A stretch of DNA of 64,000 nucleotides from Russula earlei (taxonomy: Eukaryota; Basidiomycota; Agaricomycetes; Russulales; Russulaceae), in the NCBI GenBank assembly GCA_025769875.1, contig JAGFNK010000006.1, positions 124,001 through 188,000 of the forward strand. Reading direction: 5' to 3'. Below, in pieces: positions 10,038 through 58,032 of the stretch. Both the position numbers and the translations under genes were made by a program. Under the pieces are notes generated by a model. It was not told the DNA's origin. It was given only the letters and a program-made list of their open reading frames with translations, and did no database searches. Each line of letters begins with the position of its first letter. The stretch's first letter is position 1.

Positions 10038-10089
10038 GTATCAAAGCGCAATGGGTAGGACATGATCACAAGAGCACACATGCTCATTG

Positions 10090-10921: not shown

Positions 10922-10939
10922 CATTGCATCTATTGGCCA

Positions 10940-23463: not shown

Positions 23464-23468
23464 AAAGG

Positions 23469-31472: not shown

Positions 31473-32260
31473 CTACTTCTTTTTCAATGCAGAGGAGTTG
31501 CCAGAAACCTTGAGAGAAGATTGCTTGCACTTGGCAACATTAGAGTGGTGTGAATTGTTTGATGGGGATGGAGATAATGATGGCTGGAGGGGAGTTGAGG
31601 ATGTCAATGGCCATGACAATGACAACAGCCCAATTGAAGGTGAAGGTAATGGTAATGGCCCATCAGGTACTTGTTGTGTGCCCCAATGGGCATATGAACC
31701 TGTGGCTCTCAATGGCATCAACTGTGCCATGGCATGAAAATGTGGCCAGCCAGCATTGGTGAATGACTCCAAGCATTTATTTTCCTAATGATAATGAGAT
31801 GTTGTTGTTGTTGGCAGACAAGATGATGGACACATACCTTGACCATCTCATCCCACTGTGCTCTTGTGTCATCATTCACATCCACCCCATTCTCATCACT
31901 GTATGGAATGCCTGATGTTGTCTTCAACTGGACAACATTGTGATATGCTGTCTTCATCAACCAGTCATATGAAGTCAGAATACAAGTAAAATGAATAGAA
32001 AAAAAAGACATTACTCTCAACCACTTTGATTTGCATGAGGATGGAGTCTTTTTTGCACCTTTCTTATGAGTAGCCTCAAGTATATCCACTACACCTTTGA
32101 AGACCAAATCCCTGAACATGTTGTTTGCAGTGGTGCCATCCAGATTGTGAGAAAGGAATTCTATGAATGCAGCCTCATCCTTGGTGGTCCAGTGAGCATT
32201 TTCCTAGGGAACATTAACCTGATGGGTAATTGCATCATCCTCAGATGCAGAGAGACTTGA
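31473..32260 (-). pseudogene. Myb/SANT-like protein of a Harbinger element, remnant
   Basis: The minus strand reads NMFRDLVFKGVVDILEATHK, KTPSSCKSKW (Myb/SANT-like helix with the conserved SCKSKW), then after an intron SYDWLMKTAYHNVVQLKTTS, GIPYSDENGVDV and RAQWDEMVK. After further frame changes comes a C-terminal S/T/P-rich piece ending SSALKKK at about 31,473. This is the DNA-binding partner protein that accompanies DDE_4 transposases in fungal elements. Its orientation is opposite to the nearby transposase at 24,062, so it belonged to a separate element. Confidence 0.7.
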
Positions 32261-34859: not shown

Positions 34860-35880
34860 CGCATTCTGAACAAACCGCTCCTCCTTGTGCTATGTACTAT
34901 GCCGCGTCCGCATTCGCACTATCGCACAGAGTATTTTTATTCGACAAGACGTCTCTTCGGACCTCCCAATCTTTCGACGGAGACCAACCACGGAGGCACA
35001 ACGTGTTTACGCGCTGTCAATTCTGTTGCCGGCGTGAACAAAAGAATGATCGTCTCCTCTGGAAACGATGGCATTGTGCGTGTACGGGATGGCCGCACGG
35101 GTGCCGCAGCGATTGAGAGTGCGTGTAACTTGCATCCCTCGCAAAGTCAAGGATCTTACACGGGACATTTGTCCGAGGACAGAAAGCTCTCCTCTCCTGT
35201 GATGTATCGTCGGATGGCTTTACAGTCGCCGCTGGAATAAAGGTCCGACAGGACGACGCACTGATCGTGTGCCGGTGAGCTCTGCCAGTCGTACCCTTCT
35301 CATAGAATAGCCCCGAGTAGACAGACGGGGGAATTTTCATTCTTTAGGGACCCACGGCATCCGACCGCGCCGCTCAGAAGGCACACCTGCACCCACTCGG
35401 ATGACACAGTTTCGGTGCACTTTCCCGTTCTCCCTCCTCCGGCCGCACGATCTCCTCCTGCTTTCCGGATCGACGGACGGGCTCCTGTGCGTGTCAAATG
35501 CGGACGAGGAGGACGAGGATGAGGGAGTAGTGTACGTCGACATTCTGGGGAGCAGCATATCGCAGGCGAGCTCGATGCATGGCGGGCACGGATATGGTTC
35601 AATCTGTGGTCAGACGAGGCACCGCACCGTCATCCCCGCATCTTGCTTCGAAAAAAAAAAATGGTGGCTTTCCTGACGAGTGTGTTTTTTCCTCCTCCCA
35701 GCTCGATCTCAAGAATGATTTGGATATCCGTGCTCCCTCCGTTCACACGCAAGCGCGCACTTGAGTCACTGACTATCTGATTGGCTGTCCATCCGTCGAA
35801 GAGAGTGGTCTGAGCGTTCTCGTTGGCTCGGACGAGCACCTTTCTCTCTCTCCCATTCCCATCGCTTACAGTCCGTTCTG
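34860..35880 (+). pseudogene. WDR89 fragment 1, fused to MSS1 upstream region
   Basis: Diverged copy of the WD40 gene present intact at 38,281-39,830 and 41,922-43,633. It lacks the start and about 60 bp of exon 1. It keeps YAASAFALSHRVFLFDKTSL, RMIVSSGNDGIVRVRDGRTG, DLLLLSGSTDGLLCVSNADE and LDLKNDLDIRAPSVHTQA, but carries stops (for example after HTQART at 35,764) and lost motif residues. At 35,880/35,881 it ends abruptly, at GTCCGTTCTG, and runs into the MSS1 5' region. The same fusion is seen at about 49,315. Confidence 0.85.
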
Positions 35881-38005
35881 CACACCTGCATGGCTCCGCA
35901 TCTCGCACTCAAGGTTGTTCCGGGCCATTCGTGCATCCTCCAAATGCAGATGTCCTATTCGCCTCGCCGCACATCGCACATGTGCACAGATAACACCAAT
36001 TGCTACATATAACTCGATCCCTACACCCACATTGATGAATTAATAAGACACACTTCCACTCTCGGACGCCCAAGGTAAGACCATCTATGCACTCTCTAAA
36101 CATCCCAAAGAGTCCGGCGTTGCGATCACCCTGATCTCAGGTCCTGATGCGCTCCGTGTCTGGCAGCGGATGATCCGCCCTACTCGAGCAACGGCTACTG
36201 TCCAAGACCCGTCCATGCCCGAACGCACATGCACACACACGCAACGACAACTACGACGCGTGTCAGCGCCAGCACCCCGGGACGCGAGCAAGCGCGGCTA
36301 AAACAGCGCTCATGACGGCGCGCCTGCTGTGCACGTGTAGTTCCAGGACATCTTCCGAGGTAAATGAGCGGGGGGTTATGCGTACGATGTGGATAAATTC
36401 GCCTGTCGCGTCGGTGGGATGGAGGTGACCGCGTAGGAGAGGGGAGGCGGAGGCGGACCACAGAAGATCACGGAGAGGGCGTCGTCGAGATGCTCGGCGG
36501 TGTGCGGATCGACGACGTGGCATCGCTCCAGCTTCCATGCTTCGGTGAGGTGGTGCTGCCCCGCCTTACGAATTCACCGCCGCGCATACGAGGGCGGCCG
36601 GCTTGACCTTACACAGGCTGAAAGGCTTCAGGACCTCATGGACGCCGAACGCCGAAACGGACTCCCAGCGACGCGTGGCGCTCCGCGTCGCAGGGGTGGG
36701 TACGCCGGTTCTACTGCCTCTTTCGTAACTCACCGACGCCACCTCTGCCTTTGGCATCATTCGATGGCTGTAGGGAGAGACGCGTGACGAGTTTTGTGCG
36801 CTGTAGGAGGAGATTGTAGGTTGCCTTGCGCTTATTGAGGCGCTCATCGATTTTGGAGAGGGAGAGGAAATCGAAGAGGGTGTGTTTGAAGAGGGTGCGT
36901 GCTGTCTCCGACCCTCTGTCTAACTCTGCTGCTCGATCGGAAGGTGCTTCCCGACTTTATTTGACGGACCTTGCACAGCGATGTGACGAGCAAGTCACTT
37001 GCGGGATAAGGTACAATCGATCCTGGCGATCGGCGGGGAGAGATCATGAATGCAGGAATCCGCCTCGCGATCTTCGGCCCACCAAATGTTAGCAAGAGCA
37101 GCCTCTCGAACTTCTTAGGTGCGTCTCTCCCCCGCGTCTGTTGTGTACCGGCTGACGAAAATGGGTGTGCGCAGCTCGGCGCCGGGCTGCGATCGTCACG
37201 TCGTACCAGGCACGACGTGAGACGTCATATATTCCCTAGATATCGACGGGCTTCCCGTCCTGATCGCTGACACGGCCGGCCTGCGAGAGAGCGCATAAAG
37301 CGTGCGGGTCGTTTCCTTTCCCCGTCACTTTGCGATGAGTCGTTGACCCCTCTCGAAATAACAACCTCGCGATCACACCCATATGTGTGCGTGCGTGTCA
37401 TTGCATGTCCGGCAGAGTTCAAGCCGCACATGCTTCGCTTCTCGTACTCGCTTGTCCAGATGCCCATCACCTATGCAACACCCTCGGGCCCACGGCTCGA
37501 GATCCCCTCGGAGCTCGCCCCGCTCGTCACTCATGACACGTTAATTTTGCTGAACAAACCGGATCTCTATCCGACGCCCGCGCTGCCGCCCGCAGCGGCG
37601 CTTGCCGACGCACTCACACAGCGCAGCTGGGCCGTCAGCCTCACATCACAGGCCGGCACGGGCAAATTCCTGGCTGGGATCGCCACGGCACTACAGGACC
37701 GGTGTGGGGACGGTTCTCCTTCAATTCTGAACCTCTCGTAAATCCGTATTCTGATCGAGGTGGTCGTTCCGCCGCCCCGCCTTTGGCACGATTCACGTGC
37801 CCCGTGCAGGTTCAGTCTTCCTCTTCATCGAGATGAAGATGAAGTGAGGACGCGAGGGCCCGCCACCCTCTTATCACGCACGCGCGGCATCGTGCCCACT
37901 TGGAATCCGCGCTGGGTTTCCTGGATGCCTTGTTGGACACGCGCGGTACGTTCTGGCGTCAACCGTGTCGTACCTCGACTTACGGACGTTCCACGTGCAG
38001 GGGAC
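35881..38005 (+). pseudogene. MSS1 (MnmE-type tRNA-modification GTPase) copy 1, dead
   Basis: Relic of the mitochondrial GTPase that, with Mto1/MnmG, modifies U34 of some tRNAs. The presumed start codon is TTG (35,915) before FRAIRAS. The N-domain reads ISGPDALRVWQRMIRPTRAT. The segment 36,271-36,557 is inverted (see separate entry). Then [20 protein letters not shown] resumes in forward sense. The P-loop reads [17 protein letters not shown], where the invariant Gly before Lys-Ser is Ser. Switch regions are frameshifted (near [18 protein letters not shown]), while TLILLNKPDLYPTPAL (G4) remains. The last exon with the CxGK end is deleted after 38,005. Confidence 0.88.
36271..36557 (-). repeat. 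287-bp inversion inside MSS1 copy 1
   Basis: Between AGCACC (36,271-36,276) and GGTGCT (36,552-36,557) the MSS1 sequence runs on the minus strand ([20 protein letters not shown] and [11 protein letters not shown]), while sequence on both sides is forward MSS1. Copies 2 and 3 are collinear here, so the inversion is private to copy 1. The 6-bp inverted repeat at the borders suggests the mechanism. Confidence 0.88.
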
Positions 38006-38280
38006 ACATTTTCAACTGAGTTGTTAGCTTTGAGTCTTTGACCCCTTATGCTACTGCAATTCCATTCGCTCGGACATGTGTTTTTTCTATCCTCGCCAAA
38101 GTCGCATTTTGCTTCCCGTTCTGATCTATATGACACATGACTGATTCAAAAGAAAAAAAACTCCACCGTCACAACGATTTATCATATTTTGTTTATCATA
38201 GATAACGGAATCGTTCCTGGCCGTAGTCAGCTCAGACTCAGGCATTGCGTGATGACAGGACCGGATGTCGCCATACATTT

Positions 38281-39830
38281 TCAGGTGACATGGCTCATCT
38301 CAACGTCTCCTTCATGGTCCCGCTTCGCCAATATCGAAGAGCTCGAATCATAGTCGACGGTCATGTCATCTTCCTCTCGCGTAAGGGTGGCACAAGTCCA
38401 CGCCAGGAGATTCCCATCCTCGCCACCAGTCAGAAGAATGTTAGCCTACGCCATAACGGCCGACTGTCTCCGTAACGATTCAGTGAACAAGGATGTGAGC
38501 TTACCCGTTCGTCCAGGAGCGCCGATCGCACGACGCCCTTGTGGTGGCCTGTCCACAACCGCTCCAAAGTCCAGGGCGACGCGCGGTCGTGAAAGTCAGC
38601 GTTTCCGAGCAGCGCGATGTCGCCCCTGTGGGAGGTGTATGTCAGAACAGACTGTAAGCGATCAGAATAGGAGAGAGAGAGAAACGTGCTCGTTCGAGCC
38701 AACGAGAACGCTCAGACCGCTCGCTTCCGACGCGTGACAGCCAATCAGATAGTCGGTGACCCAAGTGCGCGCTTGCGTGTGAACGGAGGGAGCGCGAATA
38801 TCCAAATCGTTCTTGAGATCGAGCTGGGAGGAGGAAAACAGCACACTTCGTCAGAAGAGCCGCCCTTGTTTTTTTAAGGTGGGGGGATGACGGTTGTGGT
38901 ACGTGCCTCGTCCGACCATAGGCTGAATGTCTCCATATCCGTCGCGGCCCACACGCCCGCCCCGGAGGGAGAGGAGCGCGGCGGGATCCAGCCCGCCTGC
39001 GATATGCTGCTCCCCAGGTTCCCAACGTACACCACGGCCTCGTCCTCGTCCTCCTCGTCCGCGTTTGACACGCATACGAGCCCGTCTGTCGATCCGGAAA
39101 GAAGGAGGAGATCGCGCGAGGAGGGAGAGCGGGAAAAGTGCACCGAAGTTATGTCATCCGAGTGGGTGCAGGTGTGCCTTCTGAGCGGTGCGGCCGGATG
39201 CCGTGGGTCCCTAGAAAGAAAAAGAGAATCATTGGCCCGTCTGTCCGTCCGGGGCTATTCCATGAGGACGGTACGACTGGCAGAGCGCACCAGTACAAGA
39301 TCAGTGCGTCGTCCTCCCGGACCTCTGTTCCAGCGGCGACAGTCAATCCATCCGATGATACGTCACAGGACAGGAGAGCTTTCTGTGCTCCTTCGAATCG
39401 CACTGCGGGACGTCACAAATGTCTCGTGTAAGGCCCTTGCTTTTGACCAGGTACGCAGGTTACACGCACTCTCGATCGCTGCGGCACCCGTGCGGTCATC
39501 CCATACACGCACCATGCCATCGTTTCCAGAGGAGATGATCACTCTTTTGTTCACGCCGGCAACAGAATCGACAGCGCGTAAAGACGTTGTGCCTCCGTGG
39601 TGTCCATAGAAAGATTGGGAGGTCCGAAGAGACGTCTTGTCGAATAAAAATACTCTGTGCGATGGTGCAGACGCGGACGCGGCATAGTAGGAGCCAAAGG
39701 CTGCGATCGTCAGCACGTAGGCATCACAAGGCAGACTCGAAGATTTGAAAGGAGCGGTTTGTTCAGAGAGCGTAACGGATTCCATGAGAGGGAGAGACAT
39801 TGTTCTGAGGCATTTGCCGAGCATTACCAT
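38281..39830 (-). CDS. WDR89: WD-repeat protein 89 homologue, left palindrome copy
   Basis: WD40 beta-propeller protein of the WDR89 family; precise role not established. Start at 39,828-39,830 (MVMLGKCLRTMSLPLMESVT). Exons give VFLFDKTSLRTSQSFYGHHG, VIISSGNDGMVRVWDDRTGA, RFEGAQKALLSCDVSSDGLT, DLLLLSGSTDGLVCVSNADE, TWVTDYLIGCHASEASGLSV and ERLWTGHHKGVVRSALLDE, and a last exon with ILLTGGEDGNLLAW. The LSGSTDGLV and late GGED motifs are characteristic. At least four short introns. The protein ends GDVEMSHVT at TGA 38,281-38,283, where an 18-bp insertion relative to the right copy introduces the stop. Over the rest the two copies appear identical in translation. Confidence 0.85.
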
Positions 39831-39955
39831 GCCCGCTACATCCTTTCAGTTAGAACTAGAACTATGACAATAGGTATAGTACAGGTAGATGGCAGAATGT
39901 GTATTTCGTGCGGGGAATAATGATGGTTTTCCAGGCCGAGAGTGTGTGATGCATT

Positions 39956-41790
39956 CACGAAACGATGTTTGACTGACACGAATTGAGTGTGACTGACCAC
40001 CAAAATTACCACTTCGAAAGAAAATGACCAGCCCTGTGACTCATGCTTGGCGGTTTCGGGGGCCGCCAAGGGCGCGTACGCGTACGGGGGGCGCGAAAGT
40101 GTAACACGGCGAAAAAAAAGAACTCCAGGTTTTCATTCCATAACAGTTCCACTCTCCACAGAAATGCATACGCACGATACCATCGGACGCACGCACCAAA
40201 ACCGGAGCAAGCGCATCAGCCAGACCGACAGGCAATGCACTATTTCCGTCGAAGTTCGATGTTCTCTCCCTCCCGCTTCTTTACCCGCAGCTTGTAACCC
40301 GCAGCTCCGGTGACCCAACCAAGGCAGTTCTCTGCTTGCCAGAAAATGGTCACCACCCGGCCACTCCTATTCCATTCCTACTCAAAACCTCCTCCTCCTA
40401 CTCCTATTTTTTCTCCTAAATAGTAACGAAAATAGCGAACTCGTAAACGTATAAAAGGGCTTATTATTAAATGTATCAGAGTGTGTTCACTTGACATCGC
40501 GTTCATCCGCCTTCCACGACGCGTCAACGGCCTACCAGCTCGCTTTCCCGACGCGTATGTTCCATTGCCTGGGTCACCCCTACCATCCTCACCCTCTGGC
40601 GTAGCCCGAAACTGACCGTACCTTGAAGATGGTGACCTCAACAGATCTTGAGCTTGAGCCATTCCCTCTGCCTCTCATCAGTGGACCTCCCCCTACTGGA
40701 TTTGAACTGGAAGAGCCAAATCCATCGGATGTCTCAAGAACCACAGCATTCAGAAATGGAATAGATCATCGAGATGTATTCCTTGGCAAAACATCATGCA
40801 TTATTTGCGGCTCCCTACGTGGTGATTATGTCCATATAATCTCCAAATTAGAGCATGAACTGGTAAGGAAGAGTAAATATAAATTTGCCTTGAGTAACGT
40901 GAACTCTAGTAGCAAGACCTCCGGAGTATGCGCTGGATTCCACGCTATGCCAAAAAAAACCCCACCCACGAATCGCGTAATGGCATGTACCTGTGCATGC
41001 AGCACGAAGAACATTTCAATGCTTATGAATTCTTCATTCGTTACATGCCTACTGTGAGTATGGAGCATTCTCATGTAGCATTGTATTTACATGGCGTGTC
41101 AGATCCAGAAATTCATCTTCATCAACTATTCTCGCGCTTGGAATCTTCATCATTTTCATGGAAAAGCAATCCCGTTGGATATCAACGACCGTCATTGCCC
41201 ATTCCCGTCTCTTTTCGTTTTGCATGAATGGCGCGTTCGGGGATTTCACCCGTTTAAACCTCCCACCTGTCGTCTACCCAGCATCATACATTGGCAAGGT
41301 TGGGTGGTAAAGGATGACCTCTTTGATGAGGTGTCCGGCACTTTCAGGCGAGAACGCAAAGACAATCACACTGGCAGCTCTTCAGCGCCAGCGACCCAAC
41401 CTGCCACAGCCACCTATCCAGGTGTTGTGCCTACCGATGGTAGTGCGTTTGTCTTGTCTACCTTGAATGATAATGTCGTTGCGGAGATTGTTGCCGCAAC
41501 CCGAGCCAGCGCAACTTGGAAAGCTTGTGTTACAGAAGGTATAAGTTGGGAGGGCACTGCAGAAGAGAATATTCAAAAGTATAAGGATGCTGTTTCCATG
41601 GACGAGTAGGAAGGGTCGCAGTCATGTACCGTGTAAAACAGAGTCGATGAAGAACTTTTTATCGACAAATGATCTGGTGTATGTGTCTTGCTGAGCTACG
41701 CGATTTCTCATGTCTCAGCCTCGTTCGTATTGTCATGCCATTAAAATTCATGCTTTCCCTCTTGCCCATCCCGCTTCTTCCCAGTGTCAG
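39956..41790. repeat. Central spacer of large palindrome
   Basis: About 1.8 kb of unique sequence between the inverted WDR89 genes. The left 650 bp (39,960-40,620) has no recognised gene, and the right part holds the HNH gene. Both WDR89 genes read outwards from this spacer, so it must contain both of their promoters. Confidence 0.7.
40629..41609 (+). CDS. HNH-domain protein (fungal HNH_2-like)
   Basis: Predicted protein with a fungal HNH-nuclease-type domain, common and often multicopy in Agaricomycetes; biological role unknown. Start at 40,629 (MVTSTDLELEPFPLPLISGP). The motif region begins TSCIICGSLRGDYVHIISKL (CxxC and first His). After an intron (GTAAGG at about 40,862) come HESRNGMYLCMQHEEHFNAY and EFFIRYMPT (N and second His). 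A second intron starts GTGAGTATGG near 41,053. The third exon reads IQKFIFINYSRAWN, FHGKAIPLDINDRHCPFPSL and LHEWRVRGFHPF. An acidic C-terminal half ends KDAVSMDE before TAG at 41,607-41,609. All three exons are open, so the gene looks intact. It sits at the palindrome centre, and a broken relative lies at 49,480-49,790. Confidence 0.75.
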
Positions 41791-41921
41791 TAAATGTATC
41801 ACACACTCTCGGCCCTGGAAAATCACCATCATTATTCCCCGCACGAAATACACATTCTGCCATCTACCTGTACTATACCTATTGTCATAGTTCTAGTTCT
41901 AACTGAAAGGATGTAGCGGGC

Positions 41922-43633
41922 ATGGTAATGCTCGGCAAATGCCTCAGAACAATGTCTCTCCCTCTCATGGAATCCGTTACGCTCTCTGAACAAACCGCTC
42001 CTTTCAAATCTTCGAGTCTGCCTTGTGATGCCTACGTGCTGACGATCGCAGCCTTTGGCTCCTACTATGCCGCGTCCGCGTCTGCACCATCGCACAGAGT
42101 ATTTTTATTCGACAAGACGTCTCTTCGGACCTCCCAATCTTTCTATGGACACCACGGAGGCACAACGTCTTTACGCGCTGTCGATTCTGTTGCCGGCGTG
42201 AACAAAAGAGTGATCATCTCCTCTGGAAACGATGGCATGGTGCGTGTATGGGATGACCGCACGGGTGCCGCAGCGATCGAGAGTGCGTGTAACCTGCGTA
42301 CCTGGTCAAAAGCAAGGGCCTTACACGAGACATTTGTGACGTCCCGCAGTGCGATTCGAAGGAGCACAGAAAGCTCTCCTGTCCTGTGACGTATCATCGG
42401 ATGGATTGACTGTCGCCGCTGGAACAGAGGTCCGGGAGGACGACGCACTGATCTTGTACTGGTGCGCTCTGCCAGTCGTACCGTCCTCATGGAATAGCCC
42501 CGGACGGACAGACGGGCCAATGATTCTCTTTTTCTTTCTAGGGACCCACGGCATCCGGCCGCACCGCTCAGAAGGCACACCTGCACCCACTCGGATGACA
42601 TAACTTCGGTGCACTTTTCCCGCTCTCCCTCCTCGCGCGATCTCCTCCTTCTTTCCGGATCGACAGACGGGCTCGTATGCGTGTCAAACGCGGACGAGGA
42701 GGACGAGGACGAGGCCGTGGTGTACGTTGGGAACCTGGGGAGCAGCATATCGCAGGCGGGCTGGATCCCGCCGCGCTCCTCTCCCTCCGGGGCGGGCGTG
42801 TGGGCCGCGACGGATATGGAGACATTCAGCCTATGGTCGGACGAGGCACGTACCACAACCGTCATCCCCCCACCTTAAAAAAACAAGGGCGGCTCTTCTG
42901 ACGAAGTGTGCTGTTTTCCTCCTCCCAGCTCGATCTCAAGAACGATTTGGATATTCGCGCTCCCTCCGTTCACACGCAAGCGCGCACTTGGGTCACCGAC
43001 TATCTGATTGGCTGTCACGCGTCGGAAGCGAGCGGTCTGAGCGTTCTCGTTGGCTCGAACGAGCACGTTTCTCTCTCTCTCCTATTCTGATCGCTTACAG
43101 TCTGTTCTGACATACACCTCCCACAGGGGCGACATCGCGCTGCTCGGAAACGCTGACTTTCACGACCGCGCGTCGCCCTGGACTTTGGAGCGGTTGTGGA
43201 CAGGCCACCACAAGGGCGTCGTGCGATCGGCGCTCCTGGACGAACGGGTAAGCTCACATCCTTGTTCACTGAATCGTTACGGAGACAGTCGGCCGTTATG
43301 GCGTAGGCTAACATTCTTCTGACTGGTGGCGAGGATGGGAATCTCCTGGCGTGGACTTGTGCCACCCTTACGCGAGAGGAAGATGACATGACCGTCGACT
43401 ATGATTCGAGCTCTTCGATATTGGCGAAGCGGGACCATGAAGGAGACGTTGAGATAAGCCATGGCGACATCCGGTCCTGTCATCACGCAATGCCTGAGCC
43501 TGAGCTGACATACGGGGTGGCCAGAACGATTCCGTTATCTATGATGAGCAAAATACGGATCGTGGAGGTTTTTCCTTTTTTTTTATCAGTCATGTGCCAT
43601 ATAGATCAGAACGGGAAGCGGAATGCGACTTAG
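41922..43633 (+). CDS. WDR89: WD-repeat protein 89 homologue, right palindrome copy
   Basis: Mirror copy of the gene at 38,281-39,830. Exon 1 runs from ATG 41,922 to about 42,295 (SACNL); a 53-bp GT-AG intron leads to RFEGAQKALLSCDVSSDGLT; the next exon starts after TTTCTTTCTAG at 42,541 with DDITSVHFSRSPSSRD; LDLKNDLDIRAPSVHTQA follows CTCCTCCCAG; then GDIALLGNADFHDRA and ILLTGGEDGNLLAW. Unlike the left copy, the C-terminal frame continues past GDVEISHG to TAG at 43,631-43,633, adding about 40 non-conserved residues, so the end was probably altered by rearrangement of the 3' junction. It is convergent with MSS1 copy 2. Confidence 0.85.
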
Positions 43634-43730
43634 GCCGGGACAGAAAAAACACCCGCCGCATGTCCGCCGCATAAAACATTCAGGGGTCAAAGACTCAAAG
43701 CTAACATCGATCGGGGTCAGTCGGGATCGA

Positions 43731-44737
43731 GGCTGACTAAAGATCACGTCCAACACGTCCTCGGCGTCCACCAGGCCCGAGATCTTGCCCACAGGCCTGC
43801 GCAGCATAGCGCAACTCCTCTGCGCCTAGAACAACGTCCTCGACTGGACGTGGAACGTCCGTAAGTCAAAGTACGACACGGCTGACGCCGGAACGTACCA
43901 CGCGTGTCCAAGAAGGCATCCAGGGAACCCAGCGCGGATTCCAAGTGGGCACGATGCCGCGCGTGCTTGCGTGATTAGAGTGGCGGGCGCTCGCATCCTT
44001 ATTTTCGGCTTCATCTCGATGAAAATGAAGATTGTTCCTGCACGGGGCACGTGAATCGTGCCAAAGGCGGGGGTGGCGGAACAACAACCTCAATTACGGA
44101 GATTCAGAATTGAAGGAGAACCGTCCCCGCACCGGTCCTGCAGTGCCGTGGAGAGCCCCGCCAGGAATTTGCTCGTGATGTGAGGCTGACAGCCCAGCTG
44201 CGTTGTGTGAGTGCGTTGGCAAGCGCCGCTACGGGCGCCAGTGCGGGCGTCGGAAGGAGATCCCGTTTTGTTGAGCAAAATTAACGTGTCACGAGTGACG
44301 AGCGGGGCGAGCTCCGAGAGGATCTCGAGCCGTGGGCCCGAGGGTGTTGCATAGGTGATGGCATCTGGACAAGCGAGCACGAGAAGCGAAGCATCTGCGG
44401 CTTGAACTCTGCCGAACACGCAAAGACACGCACGCACACATATGGATGTGATCGAGAAAGACTAAGGTCAGCGACTCATCGCAAAGTGACGGGTGAGAAA
44501 ATGACCCGCACGCTTGATGCGCTCTCTCGATCCCGATTTGTTATCTGCGGTCTCTCGCAGGCCGGCCGTGTCAGCGATCAGGACGGGAAGCCCGTCGATA
44601 TCTAGCGAGAGCTCCATGACGTCTCACGTCGTGCCTGGTACGTGGGTGACGATCGCAGCCCAGCGCCGAGCTGCGCACACCCATTTTCGTCAGCCGGCAG
44701 GTATATCACAACAGACGCGGGGGAGAGACGCACCTAA
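43731..44737 (-). pseudogene. MSS1 copy 2, 3' part (cut by Harbinger)
   Basis: G-domain and C-terminal region: PGTTRD-like switch sequence near 44,640, [19 protein letters not shown] (G4, NKTG rather than NKTD), [14 protein letters not shown] region altered, and the last exon with [18 protein letters not shown]. There the frame passes into PRSRLTPID instead of FCIGK, so the essential C-terminal Cys motif is lost. The upstream half of the same gene lies across the transposon at 48,094-49,275. Confidence 0.85.
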
Positions 44738-45137
44738 TATAAGGCCCATGATACCAACCGAGAATTCTTGAACTTTGAACTTGAACTTGAATTTTGAGAT
44801 TTTCCGGGAGTGACTGGTGTGACCAGTGTGATATAAGTGACATCGCATATATGATAAACTAATAGGTTTTTTTTTAATATGAGTTTTTATTCACTTGTGA
44901 TTTGCATATTCACATATTGTGATTGCAGCCATGACTGGGAACTGACTCAGTCCGCTTGTGTCCGCTGAATGTTGCCGAGGCATACTGTAGGGCCCAGGAT
45001 CCATGCACACGGAGCGAGAGATTTTTGAAGAGGAAATGGAAAATCTTTTTTTGAAAAAAATACTATTCAATAACACGTTCTGCATGGTCCCTCTGAATTC
45101 TCTGATACTGCTCCCACATGTCATCAGCAATTTTATC

Positions 45138-46424
45138 TCACCTGATATTTGCTCGCTCCCTCTCACGCTGCATCACAGGGCCTGCTCCAAGTTCACCAGC
45201 CAGTGCTTCCTCTTCTTGTGCGTCCATCTGGAGGTCAGCCACTTGGTTGTCAAAGGTGCCAATCTCCCTAGAGTTATATGCACAAATAAGATTGTGAAGT
45301 GCTGCAAGTGCACATGGGATGCGTGCTTGAACTCCCATGTCATACTCGCAGGGTTGTGAGAGAATCTTGAAACACCGCTTGAGAATTCCAAAAATGCATT
45401 CAATGACATTGCAAGCTTGGGCATGATGCAAATTGAACAGCTCCTTGGGTGTGCGTGGCCTAGGACAAACATCAGTAAGACAACTTGAAAGTAAGACAAC
45501 AAAGACTCACCTTGTGCGAGCACAGCCCCATTCAGCTAGATGGTACCACACGCCTCGATAAGGGGTGAGAAGTACATCTGATGAGGCAAAACCCGCATCA
45601 CCAAGATAATACTTCCCCCTTGGGACACAAAGATCAGAATGATGTGCTGCATGAAAAAGTGTCACATCAGCAGTGGAACCCTCCCAACCAGTCAGCAGGT
45701 AGGTGAAGCAGAGGTCAAATGAGCATCCCATGAGGCAGTTCTGCGTGAGACCTCCTTTGCGGTTCCTTGCCGCATCACGCTCTGCAGCAGTGGCAAAACA
45801 GTCAATATGTGTACCATCAATAGCACCCAGTGCGTCCTTGAGAAATGGAAAGAATTTGGGGTTGCTTTGGATGAAGGGGTGAGGGGGTGAATCGGCATCA
45901 GGAAGGCGCACAAATGTGGTGTAGAAGGGAGGGCTCGAGAGAATGCCTAGAATTTTTTTTAAATACCTAGCTATCCATCAGACAACATCTGAAAGAAACC
46001 TGAGAGATACTTACTTTGAAATGGTGTGGGGTGACCGCTGAAAATGCTCTCCAACATGTGTCGATGGCAGCCCTGTGACAGCTGTATAAAGGAAGATAGT
46101 AATTTGTTCTTCGACTTGGATGTGTCGTGATGATGAGATACCAAGTCATTGGAGGATCTGCTGGAGGATGATAAATACTTTTTTATGCACCCCAAGCTCA
46201 GTCCAAATGCGCTCTGGATGGCCAGTGAGTAGGTCCTCAACCCACTTAGCCCCAGTGTATGAAGATGTGTGATATGGGATAGGAGGATGATAGAGGGGTT
46301 CAAGGAGCTCAAGTAATGCTTGGCAGCAAAGTAGGAGAACAGTTGACATATTTAACATGACATAGAGCCATTGGTGCCGTTGGTGTTGCCATTGTACCCA
46401 TTGCTGATGAGGGTTATCGGGCAT
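45138..46424 (-). pseudogene. Harbinger DDE_4 transposase with one nonsense codon
   Basis: Start at 46,422-46,424 (MPDNPHQQWVQWQHQRHQW). Exon 1 contains YTGAKWVEDLLTGHPERIW and, after an in-frame TGA (46,146-46,148), continues in the same frame as LGISSSRHIQVEEQITIFLY and THVGEHFQRSPHTISK to a GTAAGT donor at about 46,017. Exon 2 has DALGAIDGTHIDCFATAAER (first Asp), GKYYLGDAGFASSDVLLTPY (second Asp) and YHLAEWG, and exon 3 has NVIECIFGILKRCFKI (Glu). The DDE triad is complete and no other break is obvious, so loss of function may rest on the one TGA. The end is at 45,138. Confidence 0.85.
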
Positions 46425-46567
46425 CTTGAGCGAGGGAGGGGACAACAACAGGGACAAAGCATGCAACTTCTTGACAGAAAATGTTTTTGGCACATCACAT
46501 GTAATTTCACAATATGTGAAATATTTATTTGGATACACATACATGACACAACAACACAAATCATCGC

Positions 46568-47760
46568 TTACGCTTGCTTCACTTTCTCCACCAGATTACA
46601 TATGTATCCATGTGCAAACTCACGTGATGACTCCACAGATATGAGCGTGAGGTAGCCATCCACCTCTCCAATGCCACAATTGGCAAACAGGGATAATGCT
46701 GGGACAATATCATCAGTTGGCAACCAACAACCATTTGTGATATCCTTGATATCACTGGCAAGGTGTTGGACTGCCAGTGTCCAGCATGCATACTCGGGAA
46801 GTGCCAAAAATCCAGGTACAGTATCACCTGTGAGTGCGGGTGCAGGTGCAGGTGCAGGTGCGGGTGCGGGTGCAAGTGCAAGTGCAAGTGCGGGTGCGGG
46901 TGCGAATTCCAGAATGGGTGGGGAGAGACCAAGAGAATGGACAGTTGAGTTGAAGACATCAACAACTCTGTTCATGACTGCTGTAACACCCATGACAGCA
47001 GACACCATGGTGTCACCCCTCTGTTTTTTAGCTGAAGATGTTTCGGACATCAGGATATCGTCAATGCGAGGTGATTTACGCTTGTTGGTTACGAAATCGA
47101 ATGAGGTATTTGCGAAGTCAAATGAGGTATTTGATGGTGAAGTCAATGCCCTCCTGCTGCCGCTGACTTGAGACAAATCAGGGGTCAGGAGTAGGTGGCT
47201 GGGATGGAGCATGCTCAGCATGAGGTGTTGGCTGCGAAGCCCGGTATGCATGTTTGCCTTTGGTTTTTGTTCCAACAAGAGATTCCATGGCCTCGCAATG
47301 TGGCCAGCCCTTGTGGTGGAACTTCTTGACCACTGGTTTGTCCTACTAAAGTAAGATATTGTCGACAAATCAGGAGTTACAGATGCACTGCAACCAGCTC
47401 ATCATACACTGCCTGATTTTGATTTTCTGCTGATATGTCCATTCCTGTCACATCATCCCAAGCCATGCCAGACTTATTTTTGATTGCTGAAATGGTGTCC
47501 CAGTCGGTCTTCATCTAGTTGAACGGTGTCAGTGTTGAGGTGTAGTGAAAAGAGGAAACACGTACCCTTTGCCACTTCGTCTTGCACGAGCTCAGAGTTT
47601 TGAAGCCACCCTTCTTACAAAGGGACCTAATTTGACTGGCCACCTCATTGAAGACTTGATCCTTGAACATAGCATTGGACGTCATTTGGTCCTTGTGCTC
47701 CAAGAGAACTCGGCTTCCTCCTCAGTCATCCATCTTGCCTTGATATCTGCTTGGGTTTCT
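46568..47760 (-). CDS. Harbinger Myb/SANT-like DNA-binding protein
   Basis: Accessory protein of the Harbinger element, expected to bind terminal repeats and bring the transposase to DNA. The N-terminal exon (about 47,760-47,560) reads ARWMTEEEAEF-like sequence, NAMFKDQVFNEVASQIRSLC and KTLSSCKTKWQR (SANT-like helix). After a GTACGT intron come WDTISAIKNKSGMAWDD and later exons. The long last exon (to 46,568) has KRKSPRIDDILMSETSSAKK and an Ala-Pro/Ala-Leu dipeptide tract encoded by a GTGCGG/GTGCAG hexamer repeat (46,832-46,905), ending ICNLVEKVKQA. Its stop lies about 145 bp upstream of the transposase start, in tandem on the same strand. Confidence 0.65.
46832..46905. repeat. Hexanucleotide tandem repeat (GGTGCN)n in coding sequence
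   Basis: About twelve units of GGTGCA, GGTGCG and AGTGCA in tandem, kept in multiples of six so that the minus-strand frame stays open as an (Ala-Pro/Ala-Leu) run. This is a likely length-variable minisatellite. Confidence 0.8.
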
Positions 47761-48093
47761 TCTGCAGAGGAATCAGAGCTTCTTGATGAGTGGGTCTGCA
47801 TGGGAGGTGATGATCAGGATCAGGAAAATAAAGTGTGGGGCGACGCCAAAGTGAAGGTGAAAAAGAAGGTACTGACAAAGGGCTTACACATGTGCAATCA
47901 CACACAAATATGCAAATCACAAGCAAATATGCAAATCACAAGCAAATAAAAACTCATATTAAAAAAAAACCTATTAGTTTATCATATATGCAATGTCACT
48001 TATATCACACTGGTCACACCAGTCACTCCTGGAAAATCCTGAAATTCAAGTTCAAGTTCAAAGTTCAAGAATTCTCGGTTGGTATCATGGGCC

Positions 48094-49275
48094 TAAGAAG
48101 TTCGAGAGGCTGCTCTTGCTAACATTTGGTGGGCCGAAGATCGCGAGGCGGATTCCTGCATTCATGATCTCTCCCCGCCGATCGCCAGGATCGATTGTAC
48201 CTTATCCCGCAAGTGACTTGCTCGTCGCATTGCTGTGCAAGGTCCGTCAAAAAAGTCGGGAAGCACCTTCCCATCGCGGCAGGAGAGTTAGATAGGGGGT
48301 CGGACACAACACGCACCCTCCTCAAACACACCCTCTTCGATATCCTCTCCCTCTCCAAAATCGATGAGCGCCTCAACCAGCGCAAGGCGGCCAACAATCT
48401 CCTCCCGCAGCGCACAAAACCCGTCACGCGTCTCTCCCTACGGCCACCAAAGGATGCCAAAGGCAGAGGTGGCGTCGGTGAGCCACAAAGAGGCAGTAGA
48501 ACTGGCGTGCCCACCCCTGCGACGCGGAGCGCCGCGCGCCGCTGGGAGTCCGTTACGGCGTCCCCGAGGTCCTGAAGCCCTTCGACCTGGGTAAGGTCAA
48601 GCCGACCGCCCTCGTGCGCGCGGCGGCTAAATTCGCCCGGTGACGCGCGGCGGCACCCCGGGACGCGAGCAAGAGCGGCTAAAACCGCGCTGATGACGGC
48701 GCGCCCGCCGTGCACGTGTAGTTCCAGCACATCTTCCGTGGTAAATGAGCGGGGGGGCTGTGTGTACGGCGTGAATAAATTCGCCTGTCGCGTCGGCGGG
48801 GCGGAGGTGACCGTGAAGGAGAGGGGAGACGCACCGCGGAAGATCACGGAGAGGGCGTCGTCGAGATGCTCCGCGGTGTGCGGATCGACGACGTGGCATC
48901 GCTCCAGATTCCATGCTTCGGGGAGGTGGCGCTGGCGCTGGGACGCGTCGTAGTTGCCGTTGCGTGTGTGTGTGGATGGACGGGTCTCATCTGTAGCCGT
49001 TGCTCGAGTAGGGCGGACCATCCGTTGCCAGACATGGAACGCATCCGGCCCTGAGATCCGTGTGACCGCAACGCCGGACTCTTCGGGAGGGGTGGAGAGT
49101 GCACAGATGGTCCTGCGTTGGGGCGTTCGTTCGAGAGTGGAGGTGTGTCTTATTGATTCATTGATCAACGTGGGTGTAGGGATCGAGCTATATCTAGAAG
49201 CTGATGTTGTCTGTGATGTGCCGCACGGCGAATAGGACATCTGCATCTGGAGGATGCACGATTGGCCCGGAACAT
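48094..49275 (-). pseudogene. MSS1 copy 2, 5' part
   Basis: N-terminal half of the interrupted GTPase. An ATG at 49,273-49,275 starts MFRANRAS, an Arg-rich presequence-like start. It then reads [80 protein letters not shown] and [20 protein letters not shown]. Here the C-run at 48,751-48,757 has seven bases and the frame is continuous through it, unlike copies 1 and 3. The half ends at the TAA target site next to the P-loop exon. Confidence 0.88.
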
Positions 49276-49317
49276 CCTTGTATGTGAGATGCGGCGTCGA
49301 GCAGCCATGCAGGTGTG

Positions 49318-49410
49318 CAGAGCGGACTGTCAGCGATGGGAATAGGAGGGAGAGAAAGGTGCTCGTTCGAGGCAACGAGAACGCTCAGACAGCTCGCTAT
49401 TCCACTATAC
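49318..49410 (-). pseudogene. WDR89 exon fragment fused upstream of MSS1 copy 2
   Basis: The minus strand reads [20 protein letters not shown], matching GLSVLVGSNEHVSLS of intact WDR89, and joins the MSS1 5' region at CACACCTGC exactly as at 35,880. The homology stops at about 49,410. Confidence 0.8.
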
Positions 49411-49479: not shown

Positions 49480-49790
49480 CGTTGATAGTGACGTCAAGGG
49501 CAATTGCTTTGCCATCACCCATCAAGATATATTGAAGATTATCCAGAATGGTTTATGAAATTTGGTTTTCATTTCAAAAACCATTCTGGACACATCGTAA
49601 TTTTCGACATCTTGATGGCAAAGCAATTGCATTTGATGTCAACGCTCCGTTCCCATCTCTATTCATCTTACATGAGTGGTGTCTCCTGCAGCCTGCAGGA
49701 GAGAGTTCGACTCTGCCTGGACTACATGAAACAATCTCAAGAGGTGGTTGAGGTGAATGCGCGGGTCACCCACCCCTAAAGCGCCTCACG
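49480..49790 (+). pseudogene. HNH gene remnant with a fold-back
   Basis: The plus strand reads RNFRHLDGKAIAFDVNA and PFPSLFILHEW, clearly related to FHGKAIPLDINDRHCPFPSL and LHEW of the gene at 40,629. The preceding bases are an inverted copy of the same part: CAATTGCTTTGCCATC (49,501) and CCAGAATGGTTT (49,543) mirror AAACCATTCTGG (49,579) and GATGGCAAAGCAATTG (49,613). No other HNH exon remains. Confidence 0.75.
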
Positions 49791-49950
49791 TACAGCTAGG
49801 AGAGCAGCGGCCGTAGCCGAAGCCTCCATGGGCACATGAAAGTCGCTTGCTTGAAAGTTCTGGTCTGTATGCTGGCCTTCCATCATCGTGTACAATGGAT
49901 ATGAGGATTGCATGTTCACCATGCCACCGCCCTCGTCCGAGATCTTGATC
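49776..49950 (-). pseudogene. Unidentified C-terminal coding fragment
   Basis: The minus strand reads MVNMQSSYPLYTMMEG and EASATAAALLAVREAL before a stop at 49,776, which looks like the end of a real protein rather than a shadow. No partner is found in the window, so it may be a piece brought in by rearrangement. Confidence 0.3.
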
Positions 49951-50170
49951 ACGCAAGCACGCACTTGGGTCCACCTCCCACAGGGGCGACATCGCGCTGC
50001 TCGGAAACGCGGATATTCACAACCGCGGGTCACCCTGGACTTTAGAGCTTTTGTTGTGGATGGGACACCCTTGTGGTGGCCCGTCCACAACGAAAACCCT
50101 AAAGTCCAGGGCGACTTGCGGTTCAACGACATAGCATTAGAGGAGATGCATGAGAGGAAGATGGCATAAC
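49950..50170 (+). pseudogene. WDR89 3' fragment with a fold-back
   Basis: Matches WDR89 exons (CGCAAGCACGCACTTGGGTC joined directly to CACCTCCCACAGGGGCGACA, so an internal part is deleted). The segment TCACCCTGGACTTTAG (50,030) to GGGACACC (50,069) is then followed by its own inverted copy, GGTGGCCCGTCC (50,075) to CCAGGGCGA (50,114). This relic holds the place that a WDR89 gene has next to MSS1 in the other two copies. Confidence 0.75.
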
Positions 50171-50520
50171 CGTCAACTGTGGTTCCAGCCCTTTAATATT
50201 GACGAAGCGGGGTCACGCAATGCGTGAGCTGACCTCGGGGAGGCCAGAAACGATTCCGTCATCCATGATGAACAAAATATAGTGACGGTTGAGTTTTTTT
50301 TTCTGAATCAGTCATGTGTTACATACTGTATGGCATAGACCAGAATGGGGAAGCGGAATGCGGGCGAGGATATAATTAAAAAAAAAACACCACCGCATGT
50401 CCGAATCGAATGGAATTGCCGTTCAGGGTCCAAAGCTAACAACTCAGTTGAAAATGTGTCTGGCTTGTGGCGTCTTGTTGAATTACGTTCCATCGGGATC
50501 AAGGCAAAGAGCGTATGGGC

Positions 50521-52770
50521 CTACTTCCCTATACAGAACTGACTAAAGATCACGTCCAACACGTCCTCGGCGTCCACCAAGCCCGAGATCTTGCCCACTG
50601 CCTGCGCAGCATAGCGCAACTCCTCTGCGCCTAGAACAACGTCCTCGACCCCTGGACGTGGAACGTCCGTAAGTCAAAGTACGACACGGCTGACGCCGGA
50701 ACGTACCACGCGTGTCCAAGAAGGCATCCAGGAAACCCAGCGCGGATTCCAAGTGGGCACGATGCCGCGCGTGCGTGATAAGAGGGTGGCGGGCGCTCGC
50801 GTCCTCATTTTCGGCTTCATCTCGATGAAGATGAAGATTGTACCTGCACGGGGCACGTGAATCGTGCCAAAGGCGGGGGTGGCGGAACAACAACCTCAAT
50901 TACGGAGATTCAGAATTGAAGGAGAACCGTCCCCGCACCGGTCCTGTAGTGCCGTGGAGAGCCCCGCCAGGAATCCGCTCGTGCTGGCTTGTGATGTGAG
51001 GCTGACAGCCCAGCTGCGCTGTGGGAGTGTGTTGGCGAGCGCCTCTACGGGCGCCAGCGCGGGCGTCGGAAGGAGATCCGTTTTGTTGAGCAAAATTAAC
51101 GTGTCACGAGTGACGAGCGGGGCGAGCTCCGAGGGGATCTCGAGCCGTGGGCCCGAGGGTGTTGCATAGGTGATGGCATCTGGACAAGCGAGCACGAGAA
51201 GCGAAGCATCTGCGGCTTGAACTCTGCCGAACACGCAAAGACACGCACGCACACATATGGGATGTGATCGAGAAAGACTAAGGTCAGCGACTCATCGCAA
51301 AGTGACGGGTGAGGAAATGACCCGCACGCTTTACGCGCTTTCTCGATCCCGATTTGTTCCACCTCATCTGCGGTCTCTCGCAATCCGGCCGTGTCAGCGA
51401 TCAGTACGGGAAGCCCGTCGATATCTAGCGATAGCTCCACGATGTCTCGCGTCGTGCCTGGTACGTGGGTGACGATCGCTGCCTCGCGCCGAGCTGCGCA
51501 CACCCATTTTTTGTCAGCGGGAAGGCATATCACAGAAGACGTGGGGGAGAGACGCACCTAAGAAGTTCAAAAGGCTGCTCTTGCCGACATTTGGTGGGCC
51601 GAAGATCGCGAGGCGAATTCCTGCACGCATGATCTCTCCTCGCCGATTGTCCGCCAGGATTGATTGTACCTTATCCCGCAAGTGTCTTGCTCGTCGAATT
51701 GCTGTGCAAGGTCCGTCAGAAAAGTCGGGAAGCACCTTCCCATCGCGGCAGGAGAGATAGAGATAGATAGGGGGTCGGACACAACACGCACCCTCTTCAA
51801 ACACACCCTCTTCGATATCCTCTCCCTCTCCAAAATCGATGAGCGCCTCAACCAGCGCAAGGCAGCCAACAATCTCCTCCCGCAGCGCACAAAACCCGTC
51901 ACGCGCCTCTCCCTACGGCCACCAAAGGATGCCAAAGGCAGAGGTGGCGTCGGTGAGTCACAGAGAGGCAGTAGAACTGGCGTACCCACCCCTGCGACGC
52001 GGAGCGCCGCGCGCCGCTGGGAGTCCGTTTCGGCGTCCACGAGGTCCTGAAGCCCTTCGACCTGCGTAAGGTCAAGCCGACCGCCCTCGTACGCGCGGCG
52101 GGTGAAATCGCCCGGTGAGGCGGGGCGGCACCCCGGGACGCGAGCAAGAGCGGCTAAAACCGCACTGATGACGGCGCGCCCGCCGTGCACGTGTAGTTCC
52201 AGCACATCTTCCGTGGTAAATGAGCGGGGGGCTGTGTGTACGGCGTGAATAAATTCGCCTGTCGCGTCGGCGGGGCGGAGGTGACCGCGAAGGAGAGGGG
52301 AGGCGCACCGCGGAAGATCACGGAGAGGGCATCGTCGAGATGCTCCGCGGTGTGCGGATCGACGAGGTGGCATCGCTCCAGCTTCCACGGTTCCGGGGAG
52401 CGGTGCTGGTGCTGGGATGCTTCGTCGTCGCTGTTGCGTGTGCGTGAGCGTGTGCGGTCGGGCATGGATGGGTCTTGGCTGGTGTCTGTAGTCTTTGATC
52501 GTGATCGAGTAGGGCGGACCATCCGCTGCCAGACATGGAGCGCATCAGGCCCTGAGATCCGGATAACCGCAACGCCGGATTTTCCGGGAGGGGTAGAGAG
52601 AGCGTAGATGGTCCTGCGTTGGGCGTCCGAGAGCGGAAGCGGGTCACGTTGATTCGTCAATGTGGGTGTAGGGATTGAGCTATATCTAGAAGTTGGGGTC
52701 GTTTGTGCATATGTGCGATGCGCGGCGCGGAGACAAGAACATCTAAAGACGCACGAATGGTGCGGAACAT
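50521..52770 (-). CDS. MSS1: MSS1: mitochondrial MnmE/GTPBP3-type GTPase, copy 3 (best preserved)
   Basis: tRNA-modification GTPase acting with Mto1 on wobble uridines of mitochondrial tRNAs. N-domain: [36 protein letters not shown] and [17 protein letters not shown]; then [20 protein letters not shown] and [21 protein letters not shown]-domain: [17 protein letters not shown] (P-loop), [17 protein letters not shown] (G2), [12 protein letters not shown] (G3) and [16 protein letters not shown] (G4). The end is [14 protein letters not shown], with the catalytic C-x-G-K motif, before TAG at 50,521-50,523. Two problems remain: the C-run at 52,225-52,230 has six bases where copy 2 has seven, shifting the frame before SFTTED; and the presequence-like ATG (52,768-52,770, MFRTIRAS) is offset because about 7 bases are missing relative to copy 1. 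Either the gene is broken or the sequence has small errors. Confidence 0.85.
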
Positions 52771-52908
52771 ACTTGAGCGTGAGATGCGGTGTCGAGCAGA
52801 GCAGGTGTATAAGTGTGTGTTTCTCACGGGATGTCAGGTGTTCGTGTTATTCGTTTTCACATACCCTTCATCACCTTTGACCCGCACTCTTGCTAAACAT
52901 ACCTCATC
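52771..52908. promoter_or_regulatory. Divergent promoter region of MSS1 copy 3 and calcineurin B
   Basis: Only 138 bp separate the presequence-like MSS1 ATG (minus) and the calcineurin B ATG (plus). A shared promoter is inferred from spacing; no TATA box is obvious. Confidence 0.5.
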
Positions 52909-54063
52909 ATGGGTCAATCACGTTCGTATCGTAGCACTCTTCTCTCCCCGTCCGTCTCCTGCATGAGGTCCTTCACGCTGACCGTATAATCCCTCCCACG
53001 CATGTTCAGCATCACAATTCATGGAAGACATGGAGAAGCGGTCCAACTGTGTGTCCATGCCTTTCACACAAACCTCCCCGTCTGTCAACGACTGACCGTT
53101 GCCTCGTGCGTTGTGTGCGTGTGTTCTGTGTGTGCGCAGTCAACGCTCACGAACTGGAGCGACTGAAGAAACGCTTCATGAAGCTCGACAGGTGGGTGCC
53201 CGCTCCCTGCAACCCGCTGCCCTCTTGCCCTCCGCCCTAACGATGATCATGCGTGTCCTTCGCATTGCGCAGTGACGGCTCCGGATCGATAGACCGCAAT
53301 GAGTTTCTACAGATCCCGCAGATTGCAAACAATCCGCTCGCGTCGCGGATGATCGCCATATTCGACGAAGAGTACGTGGCCCTTCCTTTTCCCTTCGTTT
53401 CCGCCTTCTTTTCCGCTCTCTGCCCCGGTGGGGCCCTTCCCTCTTTTTCTCTCTCCTTGTTTTTGTACGGTGTTGGCTGATCACGGTGATGGCGTGATGC
53501 CTCGTGGTGCGTCATAGTGGCGGTGGCACCGTCGACTTTCAAGAATTCGTCGGAGGGTTGAGCGCGTTTAGCAGCCGGGGCGCACGGGAGGAAAAACTGC
53601 GATGTACGTACGGCCGCGTGCTGCCACGCATCCATCGAGAGCCAATCGGGATATCCCCCGCTCTGAACGCCATTTGTCGTCAGTCGCCTTCAAGGTCTAC
53701 GACATGGATCGCGATGGATTCATCTCGAACGGGGAGCTCTTTCTCGTGCTGAAGATGATGGTGGGCAACAATCTCAAGGTCCGTCCGTTTTGCCTTTCTG
53801 ATTCCCCTCTTAACGGGGCGTCACCCGTTGAGCGAAAAACGAATCACCCGCAGGATACCCAACTCCAAGAAATCGTGGATAAGACGATCATGGAGGCCGA
53901 TAAGGACGGCGATGGTAGGCTAAGCTTTGAAGAGTTCACCATGATGGTCGCCAACACGGTACGCGCGCGAAACTCGCCTCCACCCGCTTTTGCACCGCGT
54001 TCAGTACTTACCGTTCCTCCTTAGGACATCGTGAAGCAGATGACACTTGAGGACCTCTTCTAG
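52909..54063 (+). CDS. CNB1: Calcineurin regulatory subunit B
   Basis: Ca2+-binding regulatory subunit of the phosphatase calcineurin, needed for stress and Ca2+ signalling. Eight exons fit GT-AG rules and phase: 52,909-52,921, 53,010-53,048, 53,140-53,191, 53,273-53,371, 53,518-53,603, 53,684-53,778, 53,854-53,958 and 54,025-54,063. The start reads [20 protein letters not shown], with Gly2 for N-myristoylation. Four EF-hands: [37 protein letters not shown] and [13 protein letters not shown], with [19 protein letters not shown] and [12 protein letters not shown] between. The end is [12 protein letters not shown], the conserved calcineurin B terminus. Exon 1 is only 13 nt. All loops keep their Ca2+-ligand residues. 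Confidence 0.97.
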
Positions 54064-54903
54064 GCCCGCGGCCGGTCATTGTTCCTCATCCGTTTTCTCT
54101 TCTCCAGTGCAGAGAGCTGCGCTCTTCCCTTTTTGCATGTCTCATGATTGATTCAGGGTCTGTCACGGATCGACTCGGTGTACCGATAATTGATGAAGTG
54201 TAATGATGGATGAGCAGCTGTACATATCAAGCTACACGTCCTCTCACTTTCGTCTCCTTTCGTGTAATCGCGTGATATGGGTGTTGCGCTCTCTTACTCA
54301 TGTTCTATGACAAGCAATGGGCAATGAAGGGAAATGTTACATTGTACAAACCAGGGATTGACGTATGTAGTAAACAATCAAGATGTGGACAAGTTACACC
54401 GAGACGATAAGGAGTTATTGCAGCGTTCGGAAGATGTAGTAGTTTGGGGTGCACGATGTCAGGGGTAATTAGCCCACTCCAGAATCTGGGGCGAAGATCT
54501 GTACAGCTGGGCCGAGAGAAAAGGGAGAGGAAGACATGCTTGGGGGAGAAAAAGGAAAGGTACATCTGAGTTGGGATGGTGGCGGCAATCGCCACAGCAA
54601 CTGGGAGGTGGTCCGAAAGACATGCACAAGATGTGGCACACGTATGCGATCTAGGTAAGGGGTATTTGTCGTGTTGCCATGTACAGTTGGAAATAAGGGC
54701 TGTGGCCATACAGTGTGGTGTGGGATCGACGAGTTGCAGCGCCCTGCACTGCACACTACAGCAGAAACGGCAGGCTGAGCTCCAGGGCGGGGGGGGGCAG
54801 GGGGTTGTTTGGAGAGGGAGCGAACAGAATGGAGATGCGCCGAAGGGTGGCTGGTGAGGGCAAAAAGATGGGAAGGGGGGTAGCGGGGCTCAATCCGTGC
54901 ATT
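54064..54903. other. Intergenic region after calcineurin B
   Basis: Presumably the 3' UTR of CNB1 and the 3' UTR of the convergent minus-strand gene. Open stretches on both strands (for example the minus strand at 54,305-54,754) lack motifs and look like shadows. Confidence 0.45.
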
Positions 54904-57887: not shown

Positions 57888-58032
57888 GGATGAGATGAGA
57901 GAGCGATCTTTTGTGAACACGCGCGGAGCCGCACTGCGGGCGGACCTTTTTGTACTTTCGGTTTGGTTTCACAGAGGATCCCAACACTCTCCCTCTCTCC
58001 CTCTCCTGGTGCATGTGTCCTCGCACAACTCC
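57888..58032. promoter_or_regulatory. Bidirectional promoter region of NCBP3-like gene and THO2
   Basis: 145 bp separate the two start codons (112 bp if the upstream NCBP3-like ATG is used). A shared promoter is inferred from spacing. A pyrimidine-rich run CTCTCCCTCTCTCCCTCTCC lies at about 57,990-58,009, common in basidiomycete promoters. Confidence 0.55.

Follow-up and report, generated by a model that had tools for sequence, protein, structure and literature searches.

Organization of the WDR89-MSS1 locus

The window analysed here is a 64,000-nucleotide stretch of contig JAGFNK010000006.1 of the basidiomycete Russula earlei, and all coordinates refer to positions within it. Between about 34.9 and 52.8 kb it holds a cluster of WDR89 and MSS1 gene copies, two of whose parts face each other as the arms of a palindrome. 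The cluster has four parts, named D (a WDR89 fragment), C (the left arm), B (the right arm) and A (at 50.5-52.8 kb), with the following features.

34895..35880, + strand: D, a 986-bp WDR89 fragment (region of exons 1-4) fused to MSS1-C, 81% identical to the arm copies
35800..38003, + strand: MSS1-C pseudogene, outer part of arm C (alignment, gene model)
38281..39830, - strand: WDR89-C, inner part of arm C, six exons, 398 aa, open (gene model)
38297..39927, no strand: left copy of the exactly identical block (repeat search, column comparison)
39959..41789, no strand: spacer of 1,831 bp with dispersed-repeat pieces and an HNH gene
40629..41609, + strand: HNH_2 gene in the spacer, 293-aa spliced model (domain search)
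41825..43455, no strand: right copy of the exactly identical block (repeat search, column comparison)
41922..43633, + strand: WDR89-B, inner part of arm B, six exons, 452 aa, open (gene model)
43733..49398, - strand: MSS1-B pseudogene, outer part of arm B, with an outer-end remnant of WDR89 of about 80 bp (alignment, gene model)
44738..48091, no strand: PIF/Harbinger-like transposon inserted in arm B, with inverted ends, a TTA at either side and a DDE_Tnp_4 transposase (- strand)
49972..50460, + strand: decayed WDR89 pieces of A (similarity search)
50521..52808, - strand: intact MSS1 of A (tRNA modification GTPase; P0121), start provisional (gene model, domain search)

The original prediction had described a gene-bearing palindrome at 35,800-49,410. 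It is present in the sequence, as an exact 1,631-bp reverse complement with weaker homology reaching out to 35,800 and 49,398; the coordinates given for it were accurate, and mirrored positions of the inner part add up to 81,752, as claimed. Homologue and domain searches confirmed that the genes are WDR89, MSS1 and HNH, and the 3.35-kb transposon said to interrupt the right arm is real, as its many near-full-length copies elsewhere in the genome attest. Each arm was thought to carry an outer WDR89 fragment, an MSS1 copy and a full-length WDR89 gene. The order and mirror symmetry of these modules hold, and WDR89 has an open frame of six exons in both arms, but of the outer fragment only about 80 bp remain in arm B. 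Likewise, the MSS1 copy of each arm was correctly identified, but both are pseudogenes, and the intact third copy, A, lies outside the interval then reported.

A perfectly identical block between diverged arms

The main feature of the locus, absent from the original prediction, is that perfect identity is limited to the WDR89 block, while the arms are otherwise diverged. The repeat search reported arms of 1,639 nt (38289-39927 and 41825-43463) at 100% identity; a letter-level check of this pair found a single mismatch, at 43,456, so that positions 41825-43455 are the exact reverse complement of 38297-39927 over 1,631 bp. Farther outward the homology continues in pieces of 80-96% identity by BLAST; its left limit is 35,800 and its right limit 49,398, and on the right it is broken by the transposon between 44,737 and 48,092. 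Beyond the arms, the left and right flanks do not resemble each other.

Divergence sets in on both sides of the block. In the homologous columns adjoining it, 85 of 280 differ on the outer side and 13 of 39 on the inner side, and in the MSS1 part of the arms 418 of 2,081 columns differ. The whole arms differ at 516 of 4,031 columns, with 1,631 as the longest identical run, whereas in 5,000 shuffles of the arm columns the longest runs averaged 49 and never exceeded 100 (the micro-inversion of C and the alignment ends were excluded, and each gap column was counted singly). This shuffle is somewhat strict, since the MSS1 part alone holds an identical run of 130, but the gap to 1,631 is still large. 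Having 0 differences in 1,631 sites puts the divergence of the block at no more than about 0.2% (95% upper bound, rule of three), and against 85/280 and 13/39 in its flanks the identical tract behaves as one much younger than the duplication. Among 15 repeat pairs of at least 500 bp in 114 kb of the contig, the palindrome pair is the most alike.

The MSS1 copies

Only A encodes an intact MSS1. Its protein P0121 has the TrmE_N, MMR_HSR1 (G domain) and MnmE_helical domains, and our gene model is 98% identical to P0121 over the query; the query used for the homologue search starts within exon 1. MSS1-C carries frameshifting indels and a micro-inversion at 36266-36558 and has lost its C-terminus. 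MSS1-B also has frameshifting indels, is split by the transposon and has an end unlike that of A. In both pseudogenes a glycine of the P-loop is replaced by serine.

MSS1-B is a mosaic that alternates between A-like and C-like sequence. Its 212 informative sites (119 A-like and 93 C-like, with the C micro-inversion and the alignment ends excluded) fall into 54 runs, whereas in 20,000 shuffles the number of runs had a mean of 105 and a minimum of 75. Five segments, with A-like/C-like counts of 26/53, 29/4, 7/23, 0/3 and 55/6, take up 206 of the 212 sites.

We also considered repeat-induced point mutation (RIP) as the cause of the divergence and rejected it. By the thresholds in common use for RIP, the TA/AT ratio of the copies is too low, at only 0.46-0.61, and of the 120 changes specific to C, 44 are C>T or G>A versus 31 in the opposite direction.

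The WDR89 genes

WDR89-B and WDR89-C differ from each other only near the tail. When aligned with 19 chosen orthologues (two of them partial), WDR89-C shows a full-length propeller with 53-82% identity. Other WDR89 protein matches in the genome are weak and of WD40 type only, with E values of 1.9e-4 or worse (94 of 128 candidates scored), and the two open WDR89 genes that were found are identical copies in a region prone to rearrangement. Introns 3 and 4 have GC donors, at 42846 and 43063 in B and at 38906 and 38689 in C. The public R. earlei model of WDR89, P0006 (98% identical over 56% of the query), enters the first of these GC introns and then ends, and is thereby seen to be truncated at a GC-donor intron. 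The homologue searches were run with an earlier gene model in which the acceptor of the first intron was misplaced; P0006 informed the final model.

What WDR89 may do is suggested by work on yeast. One study names human WDR89 as the likely orthologue of yeast Bcl1, which serves the ribosomal protein Rpl1 as its dedicated chaperone; BCL1 is described there as non-essential, and Bcl1 cut at residue 366, without the region of the nuclear signal, was used in Rpl1 binding assays (PMC13034042).

Origin of the cluster

The copies alternate in orientation: D, merely a fragment, is direct, C is inverted and B is direct. At the D/C junction, the one inspected for short shared repeats, WDR89 intron 4 is joined to the upstream region of MSS1 around a shared ACACCT/ATACACCT, as judged by eye. 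The same fusion recurs at the outer end of B, where about 80 bp of the WDR89 fragment are kept within 49,318-49,398. Two short self-complementary stretches (49489-49641 and 50021-50123) lie beside or inside the decayed WDR89 pieces of A.

WDR89 and MSS1 are most likely an old linkage, since 10 of 11 other species, which we take to be members of the Russulales, carry both proteins on contigs of equal length among the matches listed, where equal organism name and equal length stand for the same contig and measure linkage rather than adjacency. The matches came from lists of 120 for each protein, taken from 7,994 (WDR89) and 7,997 (MSS1) scored candidates sharing the most words. In Russula compacta, both are on contigs of 569,176 bases, and the shortest contig carrying both in the 10 linked species has 47,240; the exception is Peniophora sp. 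CONT. In the R. earlei genome (66,585,037 bases in 1,374 contigs), one search for a second copy of the cluster found none, all 17 matches lying on this contig, and a further search, with 21 matches, found none either; two short matches among these, on contigs C663 and C267, are part of a dispersed piece located at about 49,770-49,950.

The order D-C-B resembles a decayed inverted triplication, by analogy with known cases. An ancestral convergent pair of WDR89 and MSS1 could have been multiplied by local rearrangement, leaving D direct, C inverted and B direct beside A, which would mark the original locus next to the single-copy right flank. The copies would then have diverged, with MSS1 staying intact in A only and WDR89 staying open in arms B and C only. 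That the palindrome could drive repeated rearrangement had been proposed before, and finds support in retrospect in the micro-inversion of C, the fused D/C junction and the conversion-like tracts.

Probable gene conversion between the arms

The perfect block sits inside an older, diverged alignment, and this argues for recent gene conversion from arm to arm. Selection on the protein cannot explain the identity, since the block spans five introns that are identical as well. We infer conversion as the process from what is directly seen in the alignment, namely the perfect block with diverged flanks at either side of it, the MSS1-B mosaic, the copies that are open and the gene order. In our judgement it is probable that WDR89-MSS1 was multiplied locally, that the copies diverged and that, much later, about 1.6 kb was converted between the arms. 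In this last step, recombination between the arms, within one molecule or between sister chromatids, would have replaced about 1.6 kb in one arm by sequence from the other in a non-reciprocal manner, and would have re-made the whole WDR89 gene identical save for its extreme 3' end. Earlier conversion may have shifted pieces among A, B and C and so produced the MSS1-B mosaic.

Several points weigh against this account. The borders of the mosaic segments were picked after the pattern was seen, and the outer segment of MSS1-B is mixed, with 53 C-like and 26 A-like sites. The scrap of D-type fusion in B would fit a triplication only by way of a further conversion from C to B, which is the weakest step. 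Conversion looks occasional, since high identity does not extend over the arms as a whole. There is also a slim chance that the consensus within the block was homogenised. As for the genes, the basic C-terminal tail that 13 of the 19 aligned orthologues have (by eye) is absent from both WDR89 copies, and, given the GC-start introns and the truncated P0006, WDR89-B and WDR89-C are only putatively active.

A bolder version is doubtful in our view: that a fungal palindrome outside the known sex chromosomes would, by repeated conversion of its arms, keep two identical genes for a ribosomal-protein chaperone alive while the other copies of the cluster rot, and that the spacer with its HNH gene possibly flips its orientation. 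Such a locus would parallel, on a small scale, the palindromes of sex chromosomes.

Alternative explanations

An assembly artefact, in which reads from one WDR89 block replaced the consensus of the other or a mirror copy was misplaced, is the alternative that fares best, and we consider it unlikely. If the consensus had collapsed, one block could come out perfectly identical between diverged flanks. However, about a third of the arm columns differ right next to the block. N is absent both from the window and from 42 partly overlapping loci (212,515 bases), and the assembly resolves at least 33 near-full-length transposon copies of 3.35 kb, that of arm B included, which are 91-95% identical. 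Two haplotypes joined in inverted orientation would have like flanks, but the sequences outside the two arms do not match. Misassembly is unlikely because there is no N, the flanks are unlike and the transposon copies are kept apart. A mixture of haplotypes was rejected from the right flank, the only one examined, where 53,200-61,200 is single-copy, with itself as the one match in the genome.

The identity spans about one gene, as would be expected if WDR89 alone had recently been inserted or duplicated into the other arm with no prior copy there to be converted. This is very improbable, since diverged homologous sequence flanks the block on both sides in both arms (13/39 and 85/280 differing), which places the block within the older alignment.

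That the palindrome persists because its shape has a function, in hairpin-RNA silencing or cruciform signalling, is hardly credible, because although long inverted arms exist, the WDR89 genes are directed outward from the spacer and the HNH gene only toward arm B, the spacer is 1.8 kb long and the outer arms differ at about one fifth of their columns. The hairpin RNA and the cruciform suggested in the original prediction fare accordingly: with these gene directions no gene found would transcribe both arms, and cruciform formation is doubtful with a spacer outside the short-spacer class, since the palindromes described as risky for stability in PMC3855049 have arms of about 100 bp or more and a spacer that is absent or short. 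A search of the window with Rfam gave 0 matches at the gathering threshold.

Comparison with known systems

The locus has gene-bearing inverted arms around a spacer, as palindromes undergoing conversion do. Like those of the mammalian X and Y and of the Salix purpurea W, as portrayed in PMC8981503 and PMC7023750, its arms have stretches far more alike than the rest. Unlike them, it is far smaller, is fungal and has only the inner 1.6 kb identical rather than more than 99% identity over the arms; we do not place it in the sex-chromosome class because the MSS1 part differs at about one column in five, far from that level.

The cluster also recalls the SUL1 triplication of yeast by origin-dependent inverted-repeat amplification (ODIRA), in its direct-inverted-direct order and the apparent short microhomology at one junction. 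According to PMC10766186, inverted triplications in yeast form at short inverted repeats and some junctions are rearranged at microhomology, with arms 1.1-34.9 kb apart, a range that includes the 1.8 kb between the Russula arms. Unlike the SUL1 case, the Russula copies are old and partly deleted; we infer an inverted triplication as the origin of the cluster on this likeness. Template switching in Saccharomyces, as outlined in PMC8604942, also makes the arms of inverted repeats alike, but there it acts at short inverted repeats, while the Russula tract is 1.6 kb.

The process is known, and the fungal case is new. A narrow search of the open-access literature found no palindromes with intrachromosomal gene conversion in fungal genomes and nothing on the topic of concerted evolution in basidiomycetes; it also found no paper on the R. 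earlei genome, which says little about what is in print at large. The locus is a clean natural instance, from a fungus, of inverted repeats that share conversion-like identity, and as the identical tract, the diverged flanks and a mosaic third partner occur in one alignment, the tract length, its borders and the choice of partner can be read from it.

Spacer, transposon and other repeats

The HNH_2 match of the spacer gene scores 24.3 bits against a cut-off of 21, and the gene has one other relative in the genome, on contig C32 (6 of 6 candidates scored). At 40047-40575 the spacer contains pieces of a dispersed repeat found on many other contigs at 69-91% identity (best 40 of 105 candidates scored).

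The transposon of arm B has at least 32 other near-full-length copies, covering more than 95% of the query at 91-95% identity (best 40 of 943 candidates). We assign it to PIF/Harbinger on the DDE_Tnp_4 domain, the terminal inverted repeats and the TTA duplication, which we take to define that family. Its open reading frame (ORF) at 46568-47398 had no Pfam match at an E value of 1 to the Myb/SANT-like domain that a second ORF of the family would carry. By its right TTA, at 44735-44742, there are five extra bases (TATTA), perhaps a footprint, that the uninterrupted copies A and C do not have. The (CA+TG)/(AC+GT) ratio of the transposon is 1.64 versus 1.03-1.30 in the other stretches measured, and CpG loss is possible.

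Elsewhere in the window, a repeat of about 830 bp occurs in three copies of 91-94% identity (10087-10925, 22632-23466, which is inverted, and 29076-29904), each with a short array of 31-bp tandem units. A direct repeat of about 2.3 kb is found at 4714-6957 and 15866-18146 with 79% identity. The ORF at 31718-32203 has Myb/SANT-like matches under the Pfam cut-offs and possibly belongs to another transposon.

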